DNA from: Hyperoplus lanceolatus
Lineage: Eukaryota > Chordata > Actinopteri > Uranoscopiformes > Ammodytidae
DNA length: 64,000 bases
Reading direction: 5' to 3'
NCBI GenBank assembly: GCA_026929865.2
Contig: CM049407.1
Location: forward strand, 21,906,501-21,970,500
Both the position numbers and the translations under genes were made by a program. Under the pieces are notes generated by a model that made no database searches, was not told the origin of the DNA, and worked only from the letters and a program-made list of their open reading frames with translations. Positions 9,082-55,500 of this stretch are shown piece by piece (position 1 is the first letter of the stretch; each line of letters starts with the position of its first letter).

Positions 9082-9462
9082 TGGGCCACGGCTGGAAGGG
9101 CTTGGAGATCTAGTCAAACTGTTCAGCTCAAATCAAACATATGCAGCAGTCAGTGTACCCAGCGACGCAGCGACCTATTGTGGAAGTTAGCTGACAGCAA
9201 ATGTTCCCCCTCTCAGCTCCCAATCTCGATTGAGTCAGGATGCAAACGACATATATCTATATAGGCTATATATATATATATATATTTCTGTTCAAAACAA
9301 AAGATGCACGAAGGTAACCCGGCCTGTGAAGCGGTTCCAAAGTCCTGTAACGCTCGAGCCGTATATTTCAGTCCGTCTGGGCTACCGACGAGATGCTACT
9401 CTCTTCCACCGACAGCTCTGGCAGAGGCTTTCGCCGTCTGTCAGCTGTTGGGAACATCACGG

Positions 9463-39280: not shown

Positions 39281-40383
39281 ATGACATCATAGGTTGGAAA
39301 CTTCTGTAGATTCCGTCTACTCTGAGATGCCCACCTATGAAGGGGACACTTTGCTCGCAGTAAGGCATTCAGACTGGTACAAAAAGATTACTGAGAAGTT
39401 CAAGCATGTTTCACCTGATTAAGAAAGACAAGGAGAAGGAGAAAGAAAAGGACCTGGGAAAGAAGGAGAAGAAAGATAAGAAAGAGCGCATGTCCCAGGC
39501 CGAGTTGAAGAGCCTGGAAGAGATGAGCATACGTAGGGGCTTCTTCAACCTCAACAGAGGTTCTAAGAAGGATTCCAGGAGCAGGTTGGAGATCTCTAGT
39601 CCCATCCCCATTAAAGTGGCTGGCAACATGGAGATCAGCCTGACAGACCTGGAAGTGGAACACCTTCCCCACACCCTGGAGCAGGATGTTGGACAAATGA
39701 GCACAAGTTCCTCTGGAGAGAACATGACAGGAACCGAATTGGAGCACCACCGTGGCTCTGTTAAGGAGAGAGCAGCCAAGTTCGGGGAACTTGCCCGGTT
39801 GAATTCCATGGTAGGCCAGAAGCACGTGACTTTTTCCCAGAAGATTGCAGAGGACGGCACCTCAGAGGTTTCAGATCATCCAAGGCAAAACTGGACTAGG
39901 TCTGCTTTCAAGTCCCACCACTCGCACAACCCAAAATGCACCAATTACGTGGTTTGCATTCCTGAGATGGTGGAGAAGACCTTCCCTGGTGTGGACCTTC
40001 AGTTGCCCGAGCTTGTTGCACCGCCGATACCCGACCCTAGGGAGCTTGAGCTACAGCGCCGCAAAACCGGGGATTTTGGCTTCTCTTTGCGGAGGACCAC
40101 CATGCTGGACAGGCAGCCAGATGGAGAGGTTTTTCGACGTCTGGTATACTTTGCAGAACCAGGGTCAGGCACCAAGGACGTGGCTTTGGGCCTGGTGCCA
40201 GGAGACAGGCTGGTGGAAATCAACGGAATCAACGTGGAGAACAAGGCCAGGGATGAGATCGTGGAGATGATACGTCAGTCCGGAGAGTCGGTCCGGCTAA
40301 AGGTGCAGACCATCTTGGAGCTGAGCGAGTTGAACCGCTGCTGGCTGAGGAACACTGAAGACTCGCCCAAAGAAGTCATTGAG
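39281..40383 (+). CDS. myo18a: myo18a first coding exon (KE-rich and PDZ)
   Basis: The exon appears to start after the acceptor CCATACAG|A at 39281. The ATG is at 39406 and the exon ends ATTGAG|GTAAGT in phase 0 after 326 codons. Residues 1-30 ([12 protein letters not shown] and a Lys/Glu-rich stretch) match the start of MYO18A isoform alpha. [20 protein letters not shown] and the PIPIKVA block are also shared. A PDZ domain lies at about residues 213-305, with [28 protein letters not shown] and [16 protein letters not shown]18A is an unconventional myosin linking F-actin to Golgi and membrane partners, and its PDZ helps target the protein. The linker at residues 60-190 is poorly conserved with human, as expected. 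Confidence 0.95.
39327..39422 (+). other. Overlapping upstream ORF (31 codons) in the myo18a leader
   Basis: An ATG at 39327 opens a frame of 31 codons that ends at TAA 39420-39422. It overlaps the myo18a ATG at 39406 in another frame. A three-codon uORF (ATG ACA TCA TAG) also starts at 39281. Both would lie in any mRNA that uses the 39281 acceptor. Confidence 0.6.
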
Positions 40384-43300
40384 GTAAGTAGAACTGATGA
40401 TGAATCGTTTTCAGTCCACTGAGTCAATACTGTAGACCCACATTTTCTTTATTTTTTTAGTGGATTTTTTATAGTCTAATAGACAGTGTGGAGAGATAGA
40501 GGCTAAAATGGGGAAGAGGTGAATGACATGCAGAGAGGGCCGGATTTGAAGCTGTGGTCTGCTGCTTCTGAGGACTGAGCCTCTATGGGCAGGCGCTCTA
40601 ACCACTACGCCACGAGCGACCCCCTAGATCCACATTTTCTGATTCTGTTTTTTCAATGCAATCGCGTACATATATTTCTAGAAGTGATTACATCTGAAAA
40701 TGCTACTGTTTGTTGGCTGCAATTTTTCTAATTATTATTTGCATCACACAGAGATACAGAGTTTGTATTGTTCTGCTGCTCTGGATCTGTATTATTAAAA
40801 AAATACATGTAGCTATACTTGGGCTAAAGGTCATCACCACCTTCAATTGAAGTGCGTGCCAGCCTTTTTTTTTTCTTTCTCATTTTTGGTGTTTCTTTCA
40901 TCAAAGTATCTGGTTCTGGCACCACCATATAGTGGATTAAAGATGTCTGGACCATGAATGGGAAAGCATAATGACAGTGGTAATGTGCTTTTTGCGTGCA
41001 TGTATGGGGGAGTGTTTGTGTGTGTGTGTGTTTTGAAAGAGAAAATGTGTTCTGGTGTATATATAATCCCCCCCCCCCCCTCCCATCCCTCCCCCCCGAG
41101 TCCTTTGACACCAAACAATAGGACGCTGAAGGAAACAACGGCCCAAACGCCACCACAGCCCCATGGCCATATGGTCTCGTAAGACTTGGCTGGCCGCCCA
41201 TTCAGTTCGCTTCGCTTGGATAAGCATGTGGGCAACAAGTAGAGGAGCATCAAGTTAAACTCTTTATTAGCCGGCACAACAAGCACCTGGATCAGAGCGT
41301 TCTGGTGTGTTTCATTTTTGTGGTCGTAGAGTTTGGACAGTGGGAGACAATCACTTTGTTTCAGGTTAGGGCTTTGAAGTATAGGCTGCTGTTATCAGAA
41401 TCAGATTCAGGATCAGAACACCTTTGTTGTCATTGCATTGGAAAATAACAACATTACTTGTGACACTCGAGTGATTCATTCCAACATAAAAACATAATTT
41501 TGCCATCCACTAAACATGTTGCTGCACTTACTTTATATATTGATATATGAGGTACATCACATCAGTAATGTAATTCACTTTTGCATACCAATAAAAATAT
41601 CTACAGTGTGTAGGTTTTTTAAAATTCTGTAATCAAAAAATTAGAAAAACATTTAAATATACTGTTTTTATTAAAAGCCCCAGCATAATCGTTTCAAGAT
41701 AAGGACTCGCTTGTAAATGGCAATGTACAGTCCCCTCCATAAGTATCGGAACAGTGAGGCCAATTCCTTTATTTTTGCTGTAGACTGGAAACATTTGGGT
41801 TTGACACCAAAAGATGAATATGAGACAATAGATCAACATTTCAGCTTTAATTTCCAGGTATTCACATCTGGATCCGATACACAACTGAGAAGATATCATT
41901 ATTTGTAAAGGAACACCACATTTTTAGGTGAGCAGAAGTATTGGAACAGATAGACTTTAAATAAATTAAAGTGAATAAAACGCAATATTTTGTCGCAAAT
42001 CCTTTGCTTGCAATAACCGCATCAAGCCTGTGACCCATTGACATCACAAAACTTTTGCATTCTTCTTTTGTGATGCTTTTCCAGGCTTTCACCACAGCCT
42101 CATTCAGTTGCTGTTTGTGTTAGGGGGTTACTCTCTTAAGTCTCCTCTTTAGCAGGTAAAATGCATGCTCTATAGCGTTTAAGTCTGGAGATTGACTTAG
42201 CCAGTCTAAAACCTTCCACTTCTTGACCCTGATTAACTCCTTTGTTGTGTTTTGGTCAATATCTTGCTGCATTACGGAGGACCTTCCAATCAGTTTGGTT
42301 GCATTTTTCCTTAAATTGACAGACAAAATGTTTCTGTAAAGTTCTGAGTTCATTTTGATGTTGCCATCATGTGTTACATCATCAATGAAGAATAATGAGC
42401 CCATCTGAGAAGAAGCCATGCAAGCCCAAGCCATGACATTGCCTCTACCGTGTTTCACAGATGAGCCTGTATGTTTGGGATCATGAGTAGATCCTTTCTT
42501 TCTCCAAACTTTAGCCTTTCCATCACTTTGGTAAAGGTTCATCTTGACAACAACACAGTAAGACATGATGGCAACAGCCAAATGTACTTAGAAGTCTACA
42601 GAAACATTCGGTCTGCCAATTTAAAGAAAGATGCAACCAAACTGATTGGAAGATCCTTCATCATGCAGCAAGATAATGATCTAAAAAAACTGCAAAAACA
42701 ACAAAGGAGTTCATCAGGAGCAAGAAATGGAAGGTTTTAGACTGGCCAAGTCAGTCTCCAGACTTAAACCCTATAGAGCATGCATTTTACCTGCTAAAGA
42801 GGAGACTGAAGGGAGTAACCCCCCAAAACAAACAGCAACTGAATGAGGATGCGGTGAAAGCCTGGAAAAGCATCACAAAAGAAGAATGCAAACGTTTTGT
42901 GATGTCAATGGGTCACAGGCTTGATGCGGTTATTGCAAGCAAAGTATTTGCGACAAAATATTATGGTTTATTCACTTTAATTTATTTAAATTCTATCTGT
43001 TCCAATACTTTTGCTTGCCTAAAAATGTGGTGTTCCTTTTCAAAAAATGCTATCTTCTCACTTGTGTATCGGATCCAGATGTGAATAGCTGGAAATGAAA
43101 GCTGAAATGTTGATCTATTGTCTCATATTCATCTTTTGGTGTCAAACCCAAATGTTTCCAGTCTACAGCAAAAATAAAGGAATTGGCCTCACTGTTCCGA
43201 TACTTATGGAGGGGACTGTATGTATGCATGTATCGTTCCATGTTGTGAGTGAAGAAAAGGGCCATTAGAGATCACATTTTAATTGAGAAAGTAATTGGTA

Positions 43301-46300: not shown

Positions 46301-49300
46301 CACCCAATTTCACTTGCACTTTATCCAAAGGCACTGGCTATTTGATCAATTAAACTGGCAATGACTTTATGAAGAGGAAACAAATGTGCGAAAAGATTGG
46401 ATGATCTAATTCCTTCCAGACCAAGCCTCTTGATACAGTTCTGTTTGTCTTTCTGTGGCTACACTCCTGGCACCAATGAACTGAATTCTTACCTCCAAGC
46501 AACTCACCTTTTACACATGTTTATACCCAACTGGTTTTACAGCGATGCAATTTTTAACTTTAAAGGCATGACTTGTTGTTTTATAGAGGTTTGTCGCCAA
46601 AACAATACAGCATCTAGAATCGAGGTCAGTTGTGTGCTTAAGCAGATCCCCCTGTGAAATTGGGGGATTTTTTTTACATTAGTTTATAGCTCCCTCTTGT
46701 GGTGTAAAGGAGATGGTGAGGAACATGCCTTCCACAAATCATAAAGATGTGGCATTGCATTAAATAATACTTTAACACCATAGACTGTATACAAACACTT
46801 GTTCTATTATTTGCACGTGTTTGCATGTTAATCCATCCTGATTTGTGTATCACTCTCTTATAGCTGCAGAGATAGACTTTTTTTAATGGACTATACAAGT
46901 GATTTGTGCGAATAGAGTGTATTCCTCACGGCCAAAGTTTTTACTCAACCTGTCGCTGTGTAACAGTCATTTCATTTAGAAAGTATTTGAAGTAAGACAT
47001 TGTTGCATTTCCCACTTGTATCATCTCTCAATCTCTTAATTACACTTTCGTAGTCTTTGTGCTCCGCTACAAATGTAAACAGCATTATGTACGTCACCTG
47101 AGGAGGGCCACTACCTCACTGATTCCCTTCCTGTCGCCAGCCGGTTGTCAGGGGAGGAGAGTGACAGGGCAAAAGTGGCTGAGTTAATTGATGTGGTTGT
47201 GCAAAATTCCTATTTATAGCCTGTCTGTATCTCAGCAGCTGACCCTCTTCTACCCCCCTCTACCCCAGCTCCTCTCACATTACAACCCTCTAACACTCCT
47301 CAGACCAGCAGCTTTACTGTGACCCAGCCCTCGAGACTGCCTCCTCCCCACCCCACCCACACACATTCACTCAGTTCTAGTGAGCCTATGCTACTCACAG
47401 ACCCAGGGCTCTATACAACTGACTGACTGCACCACTCTGGGGACAATACTGGAAGGTTAACCAGGCCTATAGAGAAAGGTAATGGCTTCGTGTGTGTGTG
47501 TGTGTGTGGCGAGCGGTGAGATCTGCTGCTCACAGTGTACATGCTAGCAGTTCCAATGTGGCGGTCTCAGAATGGCCCCCCTATGCTGCTGAAACTATTT
47601 ATAGGAGGAGTGGACGCTGATGAAAGCGGGGCCACAGACTGTGTAACATGTTGACACACCAGTTGTGTTTGCCGCGTCCTCTCATTGAGTAAAGAAAGGC
47701 CAATTATTGCTTTAAATTGTGAATGAAAAGTTGTGACAGGTGTTGACAAAGTTGCATGTTTGCCTGGTGATCAAGTGTTGCGATGTGTAAGTGTGAAAAT
47801 GAGTATATTTATTTTCTGTCTTACCTCTTTAACACCTGGGTCTGTTGTGTGTAATAGCCATATCATGTCTTCTGATTGATTTTGTGTCATCACTGCAAAT
47901 GAAGCCAGTTGTAAAGGGATCATTTCAGTGTGCCTGCCGACTGAGGTTGAAAGTGGTTGGTTCTTTATATGTAGTTGTTATAGTATTTGACTGAGAGAGT
48001 GTGGCGGATGAATGTGAGTCATCAGTCCTGTTTGCAGTGTTTGAGTACATCTTCATGGTCATGTTTTCCCACTTGTGTCTTGTGTAGTGTGAAGAAAGCC
48101 AAAGCATTTCATTGTTATGTGTTCTGTCCTCAGTGCTGCATGGTCCCACTGCCCTGTTGGTGTATGACCTGTTGTGTGCGGAGAACGAGTCCACCGTGTC
48201 CCACCATTCACCCATAAAAATCCCATTCTTCATCATCGCTTCACACACTTCTCCTCCTCCTCTCCCCGGCTGTCCCTTTTTTCTTTTTTCTTTTTTCTTC
48301 TCCTCCTTCATCATCCCATATATTTATTCTCCACATCGCCGCCGAGCTTGTTCCATGACTTCTGGCCTTTTACCATGGCGTACAAATCACGTTTTTCCTT
48401 CTGGGATCAAAAGGGAAGTCTCACTTTTACTGTTGTGTGTGTGTGTGTGTGTTTGTGTGTTTTTTTGTTGTTGTTCATATCTGCATGCTGTTACTGTTTT
48501 TTTTTTTAAATGTCCTTTAATGTTGCCAGAGAGAAAGCTTTTGGTTCTGAATGTGTGGTTTGATCTTCTTTTGTGTTGCTTCTTCCTTGTGCAGGTTAAA
48601 GTTGTGAGTAAGCCAGATGTAAGTGTTTTTTCACCCCACCTCCCGCATGGTTTTGGTCACTCAATTCACACGATGAAAGCCGTTTTCTTGGCTGTGGTTA
48701 AAATATTAAAGGAGAGAAAAGTCAATAGGCCTTATCTAGCAATAGCTTTAATTTTGGAATGGGTAATGAAAAATGCAGTTCTTCAATTACCTGTATACAG
48801 TTCAGCTTTGAGCTAGAGCTGATTAAATTTTTCTCAGGAAACCTACTTTTTTTTTGACAATATGACTAATGCATGGCTTCAATAAGGGACTTCTCCTAAC
48901 CATGTAGTCCATCAGTTAATTCTCAAAAGTGAGCATTTCTCTGCCCACTGTCTGAAACACATGTCTGCTTGTCTTCATCAGCCAATGCAACAATGAAACA
49001 GGGATTGGAATGAGACTTCTGGGGAACTATACAGTCATTGTTTCGTGTTTCTCACCTGAATACATTGTGTGCGTCCTTTAGGCCTGACATATGTGTTGGG
49101 TACATTCCCCACAGTTTGCCAATAGACTTCAAAGTTAGAATGGACTGAAAGTGTCCAATAAAATGGCCTGATGATTGCATATACTAACGTTATAGGGCGT
49201 TGCATGCTTTGAAGTTTTCAAGATGCTCACATGGAAATACACTAAACCCATTTTTGACTAAAGCTTTATTATGGAGTTTCTGAGCCTGGTACCTGCTATT

Positions 49301-52300
49301 GAAATGACAGTTTTATCTTTACCGGCCTTGGAAATAATCTCCCCTATTGTCTCCCTTGCTCTTTTTGTTTTATATCCAGTCTGATGTAGACAGTAGTCAA
49401 CCTCCTCAGGCAGTCACTAAACCTGGGTCACTGGACACAGGAAGTGCTCCAAAGTCAACTGCACCAACATCTGAAGAGTCCAACAGTAACGCTGCCATGG
49501 ACGGCCCGGACGGTAAAAACGTAATTCGGGTTGTGAGAAGAGTTGTGAGACGGGGGGTTCCAGCTGAGTCCACCCCCAGTGCCGCCCACCCTGCTCCAGA
49601 CCCTGTGCCCAAAACAAACACACCTACTAGGCCTGAAAAGGATGATATCTCCATGGGCCTAGCCAGTCTAATGGGCAGGGGAAGAACCAAGGAACACAGG
49701 CCTCGCACCCGCAACCAAGACCGCAAAGAGGACGCCGCAGAAGAGCAGAAGGAAGAGGAGGAGAAAGAAATGGAAAATTCAGAGGAGGCTGCATCCGCTC
49801 CAGCACCTACACCTACCCCTACCCCTACTGCGCCACCAAAGGCTAACCCCCTTGCCCCTCCAGTTGGGTTCATACCCACTCCCAAACCTGACCCTTTGGC
49901 CCCCCCAGCCGGGTTCATACCCGCCCCCAAACAGAATCTGTTGATACCTCCAACAGGTTTTATCCCAGCCAGGAAAACCAGCCCAATGATGCCCCAGAAG
50001 CAGAATCCCTTGGCAAGACCTCCAGGGTTTATCCCTGTCCCAAAGTCAGACCCCCTGGCTCCTCCTGCAGGGTTCATCCCAAAGGGCCGTTCGTTCGCCG
50101 TTAAGAAAGCCGAGGTACTGAGTGACATAATGGTGCACGTTTGGCGATTTAACCTCTGGGTTGAGCATGCCGTGTGATAACAACAGACATCACTGTTCAT
50201 TTATAGGCTACATGTAACCTCCTCATCAGATTCACCCTGTAAGAGACTTCTTCAACTTGCCCTGATTTGTTTTTTGATTATGGATCATCATGACTTTAGC
50301 TTATGACATGTGTTACAATTAGGCTCGACTTGAAGGTGCAGGAGATTCTGGAGAATGCATGTTGTCTAAAATTACTTTTTTGTCTGAATCAGTATACCTA
50401 ACTATCTTCTCACGACCCGCTACCTGTCCGTTATGTGTGAGCGGGCATGTTGGGCATGTTGCTAGCTATGGTGGGCCCCCTATGTTTACATATCCTTTGT
50501 TTACATAGCATTTTACACAGGTTAGGCTGTGTATTAACACACTATTTCTTTACAGCACGCACACAGAATGGACAGCTAGCGGATCGTGAGGAGATATTCA
50601 CTGATTTTGACAACAAGCATTCTCCAGAATAGGTTACTCCACCTTTTAATCTTTGTGATTAGCAAAATTACTTTATTTTTTAAAGTTGTCTCCAAAAGGA
50701 AAAATCCCTGTAGATTTCTGACATAGACGAACATTGGTATAATGAAGCCACGCTGAATTAGTGAAGGGAAGCATGGTGCATGTAACGGCTCATGATCAGG
50801 CTCCATCAGTGAGGTATGAGGGTCCACTCGTATAGCCTGCACTCTCTATAGTGTGGTAGCTGTCTGGGCACCGAGCTGTGACTCATTACTGTCAGGGAGA
50901 GTGTTGAAGCGGTTCTGTCTGCTGTGGACCCTCCACCTTTAGAGATCTTTCTGGGAAACCACGATAATACTTCAGATTATATTCTTAATGGAAGAAATGA
51001 ACCAGTAATTCTTGTCAGTTACACAGCTCATTCTAAAAGCCATGATCCCAGTTGGATAATGATCTTTATATGTTGTCTGATATTTAATATTAATGTTAGG
51101 AATAGTTGTCTTTTTCAGCTGTCAAACTTGTATATACTTTTTATTTATTCCTTGTTTTGATTCGTCCCTGGGACAAGGTTACACGCTTGTCCTGTTATTG
51201 AGTGTCTCTGGCATTCTGTGTGTCAGCGCCGTGGCCATCTGAACACTTTATTAACAGATGTCCATGAAATCTGGCGAACAGTTGGGTATTTGGCCATGGC
51301 GCTAGGGATTTGATTTTAGGAGAAATGCACCTGGTGTTTTGCCGAGGGATATTGTGTTTGTGATGGGCTCCGCGGAGATATTCAGGTGTCCTATATTACA
51401 GTAAGGGCAGCATGAAGACGTCAGCTGAACGTAGAAATGTATTGTGTACTCTATAGTGATTTTACTTTTTCTTCTCCCACTGGAGCTAACAATAGGCACA
51501 CAACTTAACCTCACTGTCATCTAAAAATAAAGGTGAATCAGAGATAAGGATTTTTTTTTTTTAATCAGTAAAATTTTTTTGGCAGCACGACTTCAACTTG
51601 AAATATAACTTGGATGCAAAACAGCAGCAGCTATGTACTAGAATTATTGATCCACAGCTGCCTACAATTACAGAGCATAATCACAAAACATGATGATTTC
51701 ATTCCGGGTTGCTACTCCCTAGTTTCCTTGGATTTTAGTTTCAGTTGTGTAAGAATTCAGCTGTGACAATGGAAAATTATTTAATTACGCCAACTGATTG
51801 TAGCTCAAGTAACCAGTGACAAAAAAAAGCCTCAAACTCTCATTATTATGCTGCTGCAGCGCTTAATGATCCAATTTTCTTTAATAGACATTTTCCCTTA
51901 CTCGTTTCCCCATTGAATTAATTGGGAAATTCAATTAGTGGGAACACACATCCCTTGAAGTTGGGGCGTAGTTGTGCATGCGCTGAATGGAATCCATTGT
52001 TGGAAGAAAACATAAAAAGCAGGAACATAAACCTCATCCTTATTGTCACCTTTCCTTTCCGTGTTATTTCCATCTGTGTGTGTGTGTATGTGTGTGTGGG
52101 TGTGCACATGTGTCTGTCAAACTGTGTGTCTGTGAATATTTGCATATATGGTGTAAAGGTAAAGGAGGCACCTTGTCCCCCTGTGGGCCCCAACGGTAAG
52201 CCGTCCCATGTCGCAGTGCCCAAGGCTCAGTCTGCCTCGGATGAACAGGTGTGTGTATGTCTTGCTGCGAAAGGTACACGTAACGGTGTGCGTTTTCTCA

Positions 52301-52502
52301 CATTCGTCAAAAAGCACTTGACATTTGTGTTTTTGAAATGGAATGCTCTTTATGTTTTTTTTTGCAATTGCTGGTCCTGCTATCCAGGTCCCAAAGCTGA
52401 TTCCCACTGAGGAAGATTACAAGCGTGTGAAGAGAATCTTCACCATCGCTGGCAGTGATGTAACTTCTGTCTGTCTGTCTGTCTGTCTGTCTGTGTGTGT
52501 GT

Positions 52503-52564
<62 letters not shown>

Positions 52565-55500
52565 TTTGCATTTGCTGTTACTTGACCAGCCTGAGCCGAA
52601 TGCTTACTACCCCCAGTAGCTGGACATGTCGGTCCACCACACCGGGCTGTCCCTACTGAGCTTTTCAATAGGTCTCAATTTACAGGACCAACATATTTTT
52701 CTGTGTTTTTGTTTTGTTCATTCTTTAGGGTCAATTGCTTTGCTATCAGGTTCAGATAAATACCTATATGCTCTGAATGACGATCAAATTTGCCCGTTTT
52801 CTCATTGTATTTTGGCAGGGCTTGATTATATGGCAGTGTGGTTATATCTCCTCTCAAAGTTTTCCCTGTTATTCCTTCTCTATGCTTTCTGCTTCTCTCT
52901 GTGGCTCATTGGATCCTTGCCTGGCTGTCTGCTTTCCTCTTTGCTATTTGCATGGCCAGCGTGCCAGAGACCTCAAATCTTCTCAGGTATGCAGCGTGCT
53001 CCTTTAGCTTGTCCAGTGCCCCAGTCTAAGCTTTTTTTCTCCTCAACTGACCCTACTCTGCCCTACTTTGTTTTTGGCTGCCCGCTTGTCTTTCTAACCC
53101 TACTCTGCCTTCTGCGGTTCATTCTTAGTTCATAGGAATATAGTAATGTGACATAAACCAGCCGGTTAAGAGAATTGATTGTGGGCTTCCTGATCAGGTT
53201 GTTAGAGGTCTCAACAAGATTAGTAATAGTAAATAGCTTATTTTGGTTATATTAAAGTGATCGCCAAATTAGTTGACACAAAGTTGATTAAGCCTACCAG
53301 CTCCCCAGAACTCTCTTTGAAAACTGGCGTCGACACAGGCACATGATCTCAAGCAGCATCAACAAAATGTTTCAGTTGTTGATTCTACTGCTGTTAAAAA
53401 CATGCATGCACAGCAGAAGGTATACAATCCATATCAGTCACCAAATACTTACCTCATGTACGTAGATGCACCGACAGTGTTGTTGTAATTCCTCAGAATT
53501 CCTCATGGGGGGCAACAAATGTTACGCAATGTAGCTTTAATTTGACCAATGCTGCCTGCAGTCAACTTACAATGAAACCAACATGCAGCTGTGTTATTCA
53601 TGCTGCTTTTTCCCTTCACATCCTCATGTAGTTTCTTAAATACTGCACCTTGAATCTTATCAAGTGTGGCTGAAAAAGATACTCCAGGAAACTCCTTACT
53701 TTGCTTGTAATGATACAATATATTTGTATATCATAGTACATCCTATCCTTGTGTTTATGCAGTGCAATAATATTTCTACAGCTGATTTCATTAGCATGGA
53801 GTGCTACCTTGGTGTGCTGTGTTTTAACCGTACCGTGTACACAATTGATCTAGTCAACTGTGACTGTTAATTAATGACAGAACATGAAGTCCCCACCGAC
53901 CCAAACACTGTACTTCAATGCACCGTGTAATCCCGGCTCATTAATACATTTACATTGTAATGCTTTATGATGAATGACTTCACCTTATTCTGCCACTGTC
54001 GCTTGACTTCCAACTGCGTCGTTGAACTGATGTTGGCCCTGCCGCCACAGTGTTTTGTGTGTGTGTGTGTTTTTATTGTAATGATTTGTAACCTCATCTA
54101 TAAAATATTTGAATTGGTTGAATTCAATCGCTAAATATGAACCGACTTCTGCTCCGTCCCCTTAGCCCAAACCCGTGGAGGACCCTGTGGCCATCCTTCA
54201 GGCAGCGCACTCGGCTGCAGCTAAGGTCTGACCAATGACTACAGCTGATAGTTCTGGTGTTTCAGAAACGTGTGTGTGTGTTGTGGTGGTCTAGTGTGAT
54301 GAGCTAGTCAATAGGCGATGCTAAAGTATCAAATAGCACATACAGTTCACTAACTGCTGTCCCCTCATCTTAAAGCTATAGTGCGTAACTTTATCTTTTA
54401 AATAAATGAATGTCAGTTACATTCAAGCCATTGCTAAACAGTGTTGTAGTAATTCCTCAACAGAGGGGCAACAGAAGTTACGCGCTATAGCTTTAACCAG
54501 AGAGAGAAAAGAGGAAAACATGCGGTGTTGGTGCACTTATCGGATAGTTATTATGTTAGCTCGATTGAATTTCCGAGTAAACTGTATCTGAAGTGTGTGC
54601 CTGCACGATTCACCTCCACACTTGACCTGATTTGGCTGTTTCAGTTTGTAGTGTTAGGTGTTTTTCCCCCCAGTTCCCCATTAATGCATTTTGTCTTTGT
54701 GATGTACTGTACTTGGTTGTGATGTAACACCCCTGTCTCACATTCTGTTACACTGTACAATGCACTCGAAACGTCTTCAATGCAAGCTCTGTGAAATAGT
54801 TTTTTAAAGGTGGATTGTGGGAACTGTAGTTTTTTTTCCTCTGGAGGGCTGATGTGTCATGGACGTAAGTGCTAGAGGTGAAAGATGAACAAATGGAGCA
54901 GTTCACACAAATCTATACAGGTTTAAGCACTGAAAGAAGCCCTCTGTCCAATGAATTCATTCCCCTTTTATGTGTCGTGAATGTGAACCGCATGTTAACC
55001 TGTGCTTGTGATTCTTGTCATTTGTGGGAGCCTTGAAGTAGTAGACCGTTTTTGCAGTTACCTCATTTAATCGATAACATTGAGCAGTTCTATTTATTTT
55101 GCGCCATTTTCATTTTGTAATGTTTAGTTATTGATTTTTAAAAGTCTTGCTCATTGTGATTGTTGACCTGTGTTATCAGGGAAAGACTGAAGAGCAGATA
55201 ACGACAGAGAAGGCCTGGTATAACACAGACAGAGTATGGCTCGTCCACAAGGACGGATTTTCCTTGGGTGAGTAAAAAAAAACTTCAATATTTAAGTATC
55301 TGCTTCCATATATAATTCCTCAAATATTCAAAGCAAATATATAAAGCTCACTCTCCTGTCAGTGCTGGACGGGTCTTTTTCTGGCTGTCAATTATTGTTG
55401 ACCTACAGTATAGAGGTGGGCTTTTGAAGCTGATGTGCTTTTGATACTTAAAAGCTAAACGAGTGTACGTGGCCAGACTGACTCCCTTTTACCATAGACG

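Follow-up and report, generated by a model that had tools for sequence, protein, structure and literature searches.

Exon layout of the myo18a PDZ-to-motor region

The region analyzed here is a 64,000-nt stretch of DNA from Hyperoplus lanceolatus (assembly GCA_026929865.2, CM049407.1, positions 21,906,501-21,970,500, forward strand), referred to below as the window. It carries the part of myo18a that lies between the exon encoding the PDZ domain and the exons encoding the motor. The first coding exon of the alpha form encodes the KE-rich region and the PDZ domain (Pfam PDZ, E 1e-8), and is separated by 14.8 kb from a common exon that encodes the beginning of an SH3 domain (Pfam SH3_Myosin-XVIIIa, E 1.1e-13). 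Within this interval, a small start exon (g1) precedes a run of coding segments, designated A to E (Table 1). As described below, the block from 48375 to 54225 is very probably the teleost counterpart of the N-terminal extension of Myo18A-gamma, a muscle isoform that lacks the PDZ domain, and its start exon probably leaves through a donor without GT.

An earlier note on this DNA had listed five segments of 24, 735, 90, 72 and 60 nt, all in phase 0 and flanked by phase-0 boundaries at 40383 and 55180. The coordinates, lengths and phases were confirmed, and the segments amount to 981 nt or 327 codons. Neither the start exon g1 nor a further phase-0 candidate of 27 nt had been listed. The five segments are, as the note implied, not known from the human alpha isoform.

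Splice sites were graded with a simple position-weight scheme. Both sites of exon A are good (acceptor 6.4, donor 4.1). The acceptor of exon B is good (7.6) and its donor weak (-1.0); in exon C, it is the acceptor that is poor (-3.8), the donor being good (5.7). The donors of exons D and E are weak, about 0. The sites of the 27-nt candidate, which emerged from a splice-site scan, are fair (3.3 and 4.5).

Exon B, with a proline content of 19.2% by composition count, contains five copies of a 15-residue PLAPP.GFIP.PK unit (49860-50100). Derivation of this exon from a simple repeat was considered and set aside; Tandem Repeats Finder reported just two short arrays there. No PDZ domain was found in the joined block by Pfam at E 1, the joined extension had no matches in the PDB at E 0.1, and a search of NCBIfam returned a single match, far under its cut-off.

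Table 1. Features of the myo18a PDZ-to-motor region, in positions of the window.
Feature	Position	Strand	Remarks
Alpha first coding exon (coding part)	39406..40383	+	ATG, KE-rich region, PDZ domain; donor GAG|GTAAGT, phase 0
MEF2-type site CTATTTATAG	43448		in the window
MEF2-type site CTATTTATAG	47210..47219	+	upstream of g1; presumed role
MEF2-type site CTATTTATAG	47595..47604	+	upstream of g1; presumed role
g1, proposed first coding exon of gamma-type N-terminus	48375..48413	+	13 codons; 53-nt block conserved in C4 duplicate; homologous myo18b start
Proposed non-GT donor GGAAGT	48414..48419	+	AAG|GGAAGT, identical in C4 duplicate; AAG|GAAAGT in myo18b
TGCATG (RBFOX motif)	48482..48487	+	+69 of the putative first gamma intron; motif count
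Exon A	48595..48618	+	VKVVSKPD, phase 0; top-scoring candidate exon between g1 and B
Exon B	49380..50114	+	245 aa, phase 0, proline 19%, five GFIP repeats; kept in C4 duplicate
Exon C (candidate)	52159..52248	+	phase 0, weak acceptor; no counterpart found in C4 duplicate
Exon D	52388..52459	+	phase 0; counterpart in C4 duplicate
27-nt candidate exon	52960..52986	+	RARDLKSSQ, phase 0; splice-site scan; absent from the earlier list
Exon E	54166..54225	+	phase 0; counterpart in C4 duplicate
Common exon	55180..55267	+	GKTEEQ..., phase-0 start; proposed alpha/gamma joining point; begins myosin-XVIIIa SH3 domain

A conserved start exon in the two myo18a duplicates

The PDZ exon has one other copy in the genome, located on C4 and 60% identical, and the C4 gene is likely a product of the teleost genome duplication. 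Its PDZ exon reads open to ...SSQ, followed by GTAACT, in phase 0. The counterpart of exon B was detected ~55 kb downstream of that exon by tblastn against a 20-kb stretch of C4 (E 1.4e-36) and appeared in a whole-genome search as two C4 pieces (E 9.2e-5 and 7.3e-4). It is much longer than in the window, with 386 codons (1158 nt) and four (G/R)FIP repeats versus 245 codons and five repeats. Exons D, E and the common exon follow it in this order, and the scores of D and E were each reached by none of 1000 shuffled peptides. Exon A was not detectable in the C4 duplicate (its score was reached by 556 of 1000 shuffled peptides), nor were exon C (284 of 1000) and the 27-nt candidate (988 of 1000); scanning the C4 duplicate for splice sites yielded no candidate for exon A either, at the settings used. 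Conservation thus supports three of the five segments (B, D and E) as real coding exons, as the earlier note had proposed for all of them.

The start exon g1 lies within the PDZ intron and ends 181 nt before exon A; its ATG is in good context. The counterpart in the C4 duplicate, MAFSSRFSFWEKK at C4:37113110, follows the PDZ exon at a distance of ~54 kb and precedes exon B by 1.1 kb. When stretches of ~5 kb from the window and from C4 were compared by blastn, a 53-nt match covered the g1 start and its donor (E 1.3e-11), the next-best match being at E 0.26. The g1 block was accordingly the sole match under E 0.2, and none was found outside it between these stretches, the promoter region included. 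Furthermore, the 30-base core of g1 occurs at two sites only in the genome, in the window and on C4, at up to 3 mismatches. Both copies therefore appear to have retained their two front ends.

The earlier note had interpreted the five segments as a modular spacer, in which combinatorial splicing between the PDZ exon and the motor would give up to 32 versions and tune the distance between the two. In its favor, all boundaries, including the PDZ donor and that of the C4 PDZ exon, are in phase 0, so that the joins would stay in frame; phase 0 is, however, a requirement of any interchangeable N-terminus, and is hence no pointer to independent cassettes. A conserved start exon heads the block, which matches the PDZ-less extension of Myo18A-gamma, and in C4 the block is ~55 kb away from the PDZ exon. 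The cassettes are not conserved as a set, and reviews describe the mouse extension of this kind as replacing the PDZ front end (PMC11112018, PMC7900500). The spacer is thus probably a misreading, and combinatorial splicing of this sort is improbable; given a gamma-type start, a linker is no longer needed as an explanation. Some of the exons may still be included in transcripts that carry the PDZ exon.

The homologous start of myo18b

A further class-18 myosin gene was located on C18. It yielded collinear matches to pieces of the human MYO18B motor and tail (best E 1.4e-25), and is called myo18b for that reason; a MYO18A motor piece gave no match at this gene at E 1e-3. Against the naming, C18 was not among the matches when a shorter piece of the human MYO18B motor was searched against the whole genome at E 1e-5, and one further C18 match was partly due to a fish fragment inside the query. 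The MYO18B N-terminus matched a C18 exon at E 3.5e-5, the sole match under E 1 among the five listed; upstream of this exon, at a distance of 1.5 kb, lies the end of a start exon, MALSSRLKLWEQK. The junction reads MALSSRLKLWEQK|GAAAGT, followed by CAG|ATAAAGGAG (IKEE...) at the next exon, in phase 0. Since the second exon begins in phase 0 at this point, AAG, which encodes lysine, is expected to be the last codon of the start exon.

The first 13 codons of g1 share with MYO18B the pattern MA.SR...W..K, the phase-0 junction after the lysine and, in this fish, a near-consensus candidate donor without GT, which is GA in myo18b and GG in myo18a. Apart from the start, no further MYO18B match to the myo18a block turned up, no systematic search having been made.

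In another explanation, g1 would be a conserved regulatory or short open reading frame (ORF) element and the gamma form would start elsewhere, for example at an ATG inside exon B. The unspliced g1 frame of C4 indeed stops right after GSLI, which would give a possible free ORF of 17 residues. Two points make this explanation very unlikely: g1 is homologous to the myo18b N-terminus, with the following myo18b exon staying in the frame predicted from human MYO18B, and mouse gamma and Myo18B have much of their first 19 residues in common (PMC11112018).

On the minus strand of C18, at ~27829520-27830000, three consecutive matches to one myo18b stretch (CEQPLQCEVNHV.GCDPVRY) start within ~335 bases, which may represent a local duplication or an assembly effect.

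The donor of the start exon

After the same lysine codon, GGAAGT is found in both myo18a copies and GAAAGT in myo18b; both hexamers agree with the donor consensus save for the T at +2. With positions +1 and +2 left out, the three proposed start-exon donors score 8.5 bits each. Among the GT alternatives, the single one close to this junction in the myo18a copies scores -8.3 bits, and a phase-0 GT in myo18b -5.0 bits. A donor lacking GT is probably used by g1, with GG as its first two bases in the two myo18a genes and GA in myo18b. As exon A starts with G, the junction in the window can equally be written as a GA donor with a GG acceptor, yielding the same mRNA; such a one-base shift is impossible for C4 exon B and for myo18b.

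A canonical route would employ a GT located four bases downstream (GGAA|GTCTCA, phase 1), together with the downstream phase-1 acceptors AAAG|TTGTGAG in exon A and CCAG|ACAGTG at C4 exon B. This GT is kept in each of the myo18a copies, and inspection shows that the frames would fit. The scores are poor, at -8.3 bits for the donor and -1.2 for the exon A acceptor, and the homologous junction in myo18b must be in phase 0, since by inspection all AGs within 15 nt of the beginning of exon 2 there are in that phase. The phase-0 GT of myo18b (-5.0) would add two residues that are not known from the human protein. Taken together, these points render the canonical route unlikely.

An out-of-frame ATG at 48355, 20 nt 5' of the g1 ATG, recurs at an equal distance in the C4 duplicate, a point against the present reading. 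If it opened the true frame, GAA|GTCTCA would supply a GT donor in phase 0. Over the same stretch, this frame shows five changing and no silent codon differences between the copies, versus four and two in the MA.SR frame, which favors the latter, the counts being small; over all of its 21 codons, ten differences are changing and one is silent. The MA.SR frame alone matches myo18b, where the upstream frame contains a stop (by inspection), and the donor would again be the one at -8.3 bits. A start at 48355 is therefore extremely improbable. The ATG may belong to an upstream ORF.

Donors of the GA and GG type have been described in the copepod Eurytemora affinis, with an obligate exon-final AG and almost always A at +3 (PMC5714493), and for the GA donor of FGFR a dependence on a canonical site, six nt 5' of it, has been reported (PMC7072748). 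The proposed junctions of all three class-18 start exons show the exon-final AG, the A at +3, A or G at +2 and an AG acceptor, and in the first three of these traits they resemble the GA/GG donor introns of FGFR1-3 and E. affinis. They differ from them in that the g1 site belongs to a first coding exon, beside UGCAUG; unlike the FGFR donor, g1 has no canonical site six nt upstream (by inspection).

Several facts speak against such a donor. GG and GA donors are very rare in human (PMC4176328, PMC7072748); PMC5714493 quotes 32 and 14 of them, respectively, among 222,263 introns. Being homologous, the three start exons are not independent cases. The string AAGGRAAGT is also common enough, occurring three times in the window versus 1.4 expected. 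As it is no rarity, the argument for the donor rests on its place at the homologous junction of three related genes. No prior report of a non-GT donor in MYO18A or MYO18B was seen among the papers listed by literature searches, which did not extend to the supplementary 184-site list of PMC4176328; the main text of that paper contains no mention of MYO18.

A genuine non-GT donor would cause gene predictors and aligners bound to GT to overlook the gamma start of fish and perhaps that of myo18b, a gene whose mutations have been linked to human myopathy (PMC7900500). It would moreover constitute a rare conserved vertebrate donor without GT, and one with a testable reason.

Proposed assignment to Myo18A-gamma

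The assignment of the block 48375-54225 to the Myo18A-gamma extension is well supported. Three features argue for it: a conserved start codon downstream of the PDZ exon in both myo18a copies; a Myo18B-like N-terminus, established through fish myo18b; and a proline-rich extension in place of the KE region and PDZ domain. The human MYO18B N-terminus likewise aligns at 48375 from its residue 1, with 7 of 13 residues identical, which is weak by itself (E 0.21 in the window). The primary description of mouse Myo18A-gamma is said to be that of Horsthemke et al. 2019.

The fish block can be compared with the isoforms of mouse Myo18A, which according to reviews comprise alpha, with KE and PDZ, beta, without the extension, and gamma, an A-band protein of striated muscle, and which include an internal transcription start (PMC11112018, PMC7900500, PMC11285346). 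The gamma extension of the mouse is described as lacking KE and PDZ, containing a polyproline segment and resembling Myo18B in its first 19 residues (PMC11112018). The fish block shares with it the PDZ-less alternative N-terminus, the Myo18B-like start, the joining, as predicted, to common motor exons and a proline-rich extension, whose estimated length is similar. With all five exons included, the fish extension amounts to 340 residues from g1 to E, versus ~309 in mouse gamma, a figure estimated from the published position of the P-loop together with the human spacing. In contrast to mouse gamma, the fish exon B bears GFIP.PK repeats, and no counterpart of two short fish exons was detected in C4. 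The serine-rich C-terminal extension, another trait of Myo18A-gamma, would be encoded outside the window.

In the proposed arrangement, a promoter inside the 14.8-kb stretch would give rise to transcripts beginning at or before g1, which would be joined to exons A, B, perhaps C, D and E, and then to the common exon, throughout in phase 0. The product would lack the KE/PDZ front end and bear instead a proline-rich, probably disordered extension of ~340 residues. By likeness to mouse gamma, muscle expression and a role in the A-band would be expected for the fish product. This would account for the puzzling run of exons, as belonging to a sarcomeric myosin isoform in its fish version.

Other observations weaken the assignment. 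The best match of the human MYO18B N-terminus in the window is at 9456 (E 0.15) rather than at 48375, and at the DNA level g1 and myo18b share only an 18-nt blastn match (E 0.99). In the search for acceptors up to 200 nt upstream of the start, none in the window was good (best -3.2); upstream of the homologous starts, a fair site was found at 76 nt in C4 (5.4) and a strong one at 145 nt in myo18b (9.6). A 5' untranslated exon may thus precede g1 or be lacking. The lack of detectable counterparts of exons A, C and the 27-nt candidate in C4 belongs here as well, as does the comparison with mammalian gamma, made through reviews and pieces of human sequence only.

Motifs possibly associated with muscle expression

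Three exact copies of the MEF2-type site CTATTTATAG occur in the window, two of them within 1.2 kb upstream of g1. None of 100 shuffles contained at least three, the motif having been picked after it was seen. The C4 stretch contains no exact CTATTTATAG, with looser MEF2-type sites only, one of them 412 nt before the C4 g1. The three copies are a hint of a muscle promoter.

The RBFOX motif UGCAUG was found within 75 nt of the donor in all three class-18 start exons (at +69 in the window, +41 in C4, and +17 and +46 in myo18b), versus one of the 11 canonical donors of the two myo18a genes. In random 75-nt segments its frequency was 0.040 in the window, 0.049 in C4 and 0.012 in myo18b. Their product, 2.3e-5, overstates the significance, as UGCAUG was noticed after three motif types had been inspected, a point that tells against the readings below. 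Motifs for MBNL and QKI displayed no consistent pattern.

RBFOX bound downstream of a weak donor aids recruitment of U1 in the muscle-specific exon 9 of GFPT1 (PMC10514471), and it acts at the weak donor of MYH9 exon A2 (PMC13158602). The g1 donor, with its predicted RBFOX binding, would resemble these cases in combining a weak donor and RBFOX with muscle or tissue specificity; in the sources cited, the GFPT1 and MYH9 donors are described as weak, not as lacking GT. By analogy, RBFOX bound at UGCAUG might recruit U1 to the non-GT donor and thereby confine gamma to muscle, a possibility suggested by the post-hoc motif count and somewhat less likely than not. More tentative still is the broader proposition that class-18 myosins hold an old non-GT donor at their first muscle exon, dating perhaps from before the split of MYO18A and MYO18B, which would have been kept as a muscle lock for RBFOX-dependent recruitment of U1. 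Exon 48 of MYO18A responds to RBFOX2 (PMC8686545) and a Myo18a cassette exon to QKI (PMC5062968); neither is claimed to be one of the exons described here.

An additional feature of the intron between the PDZ exon and the gamma block is an inverted-arm DNA element at 41726-43220, composed of two 527-nt arms that are 94% complementary and Tc1-like by eye.

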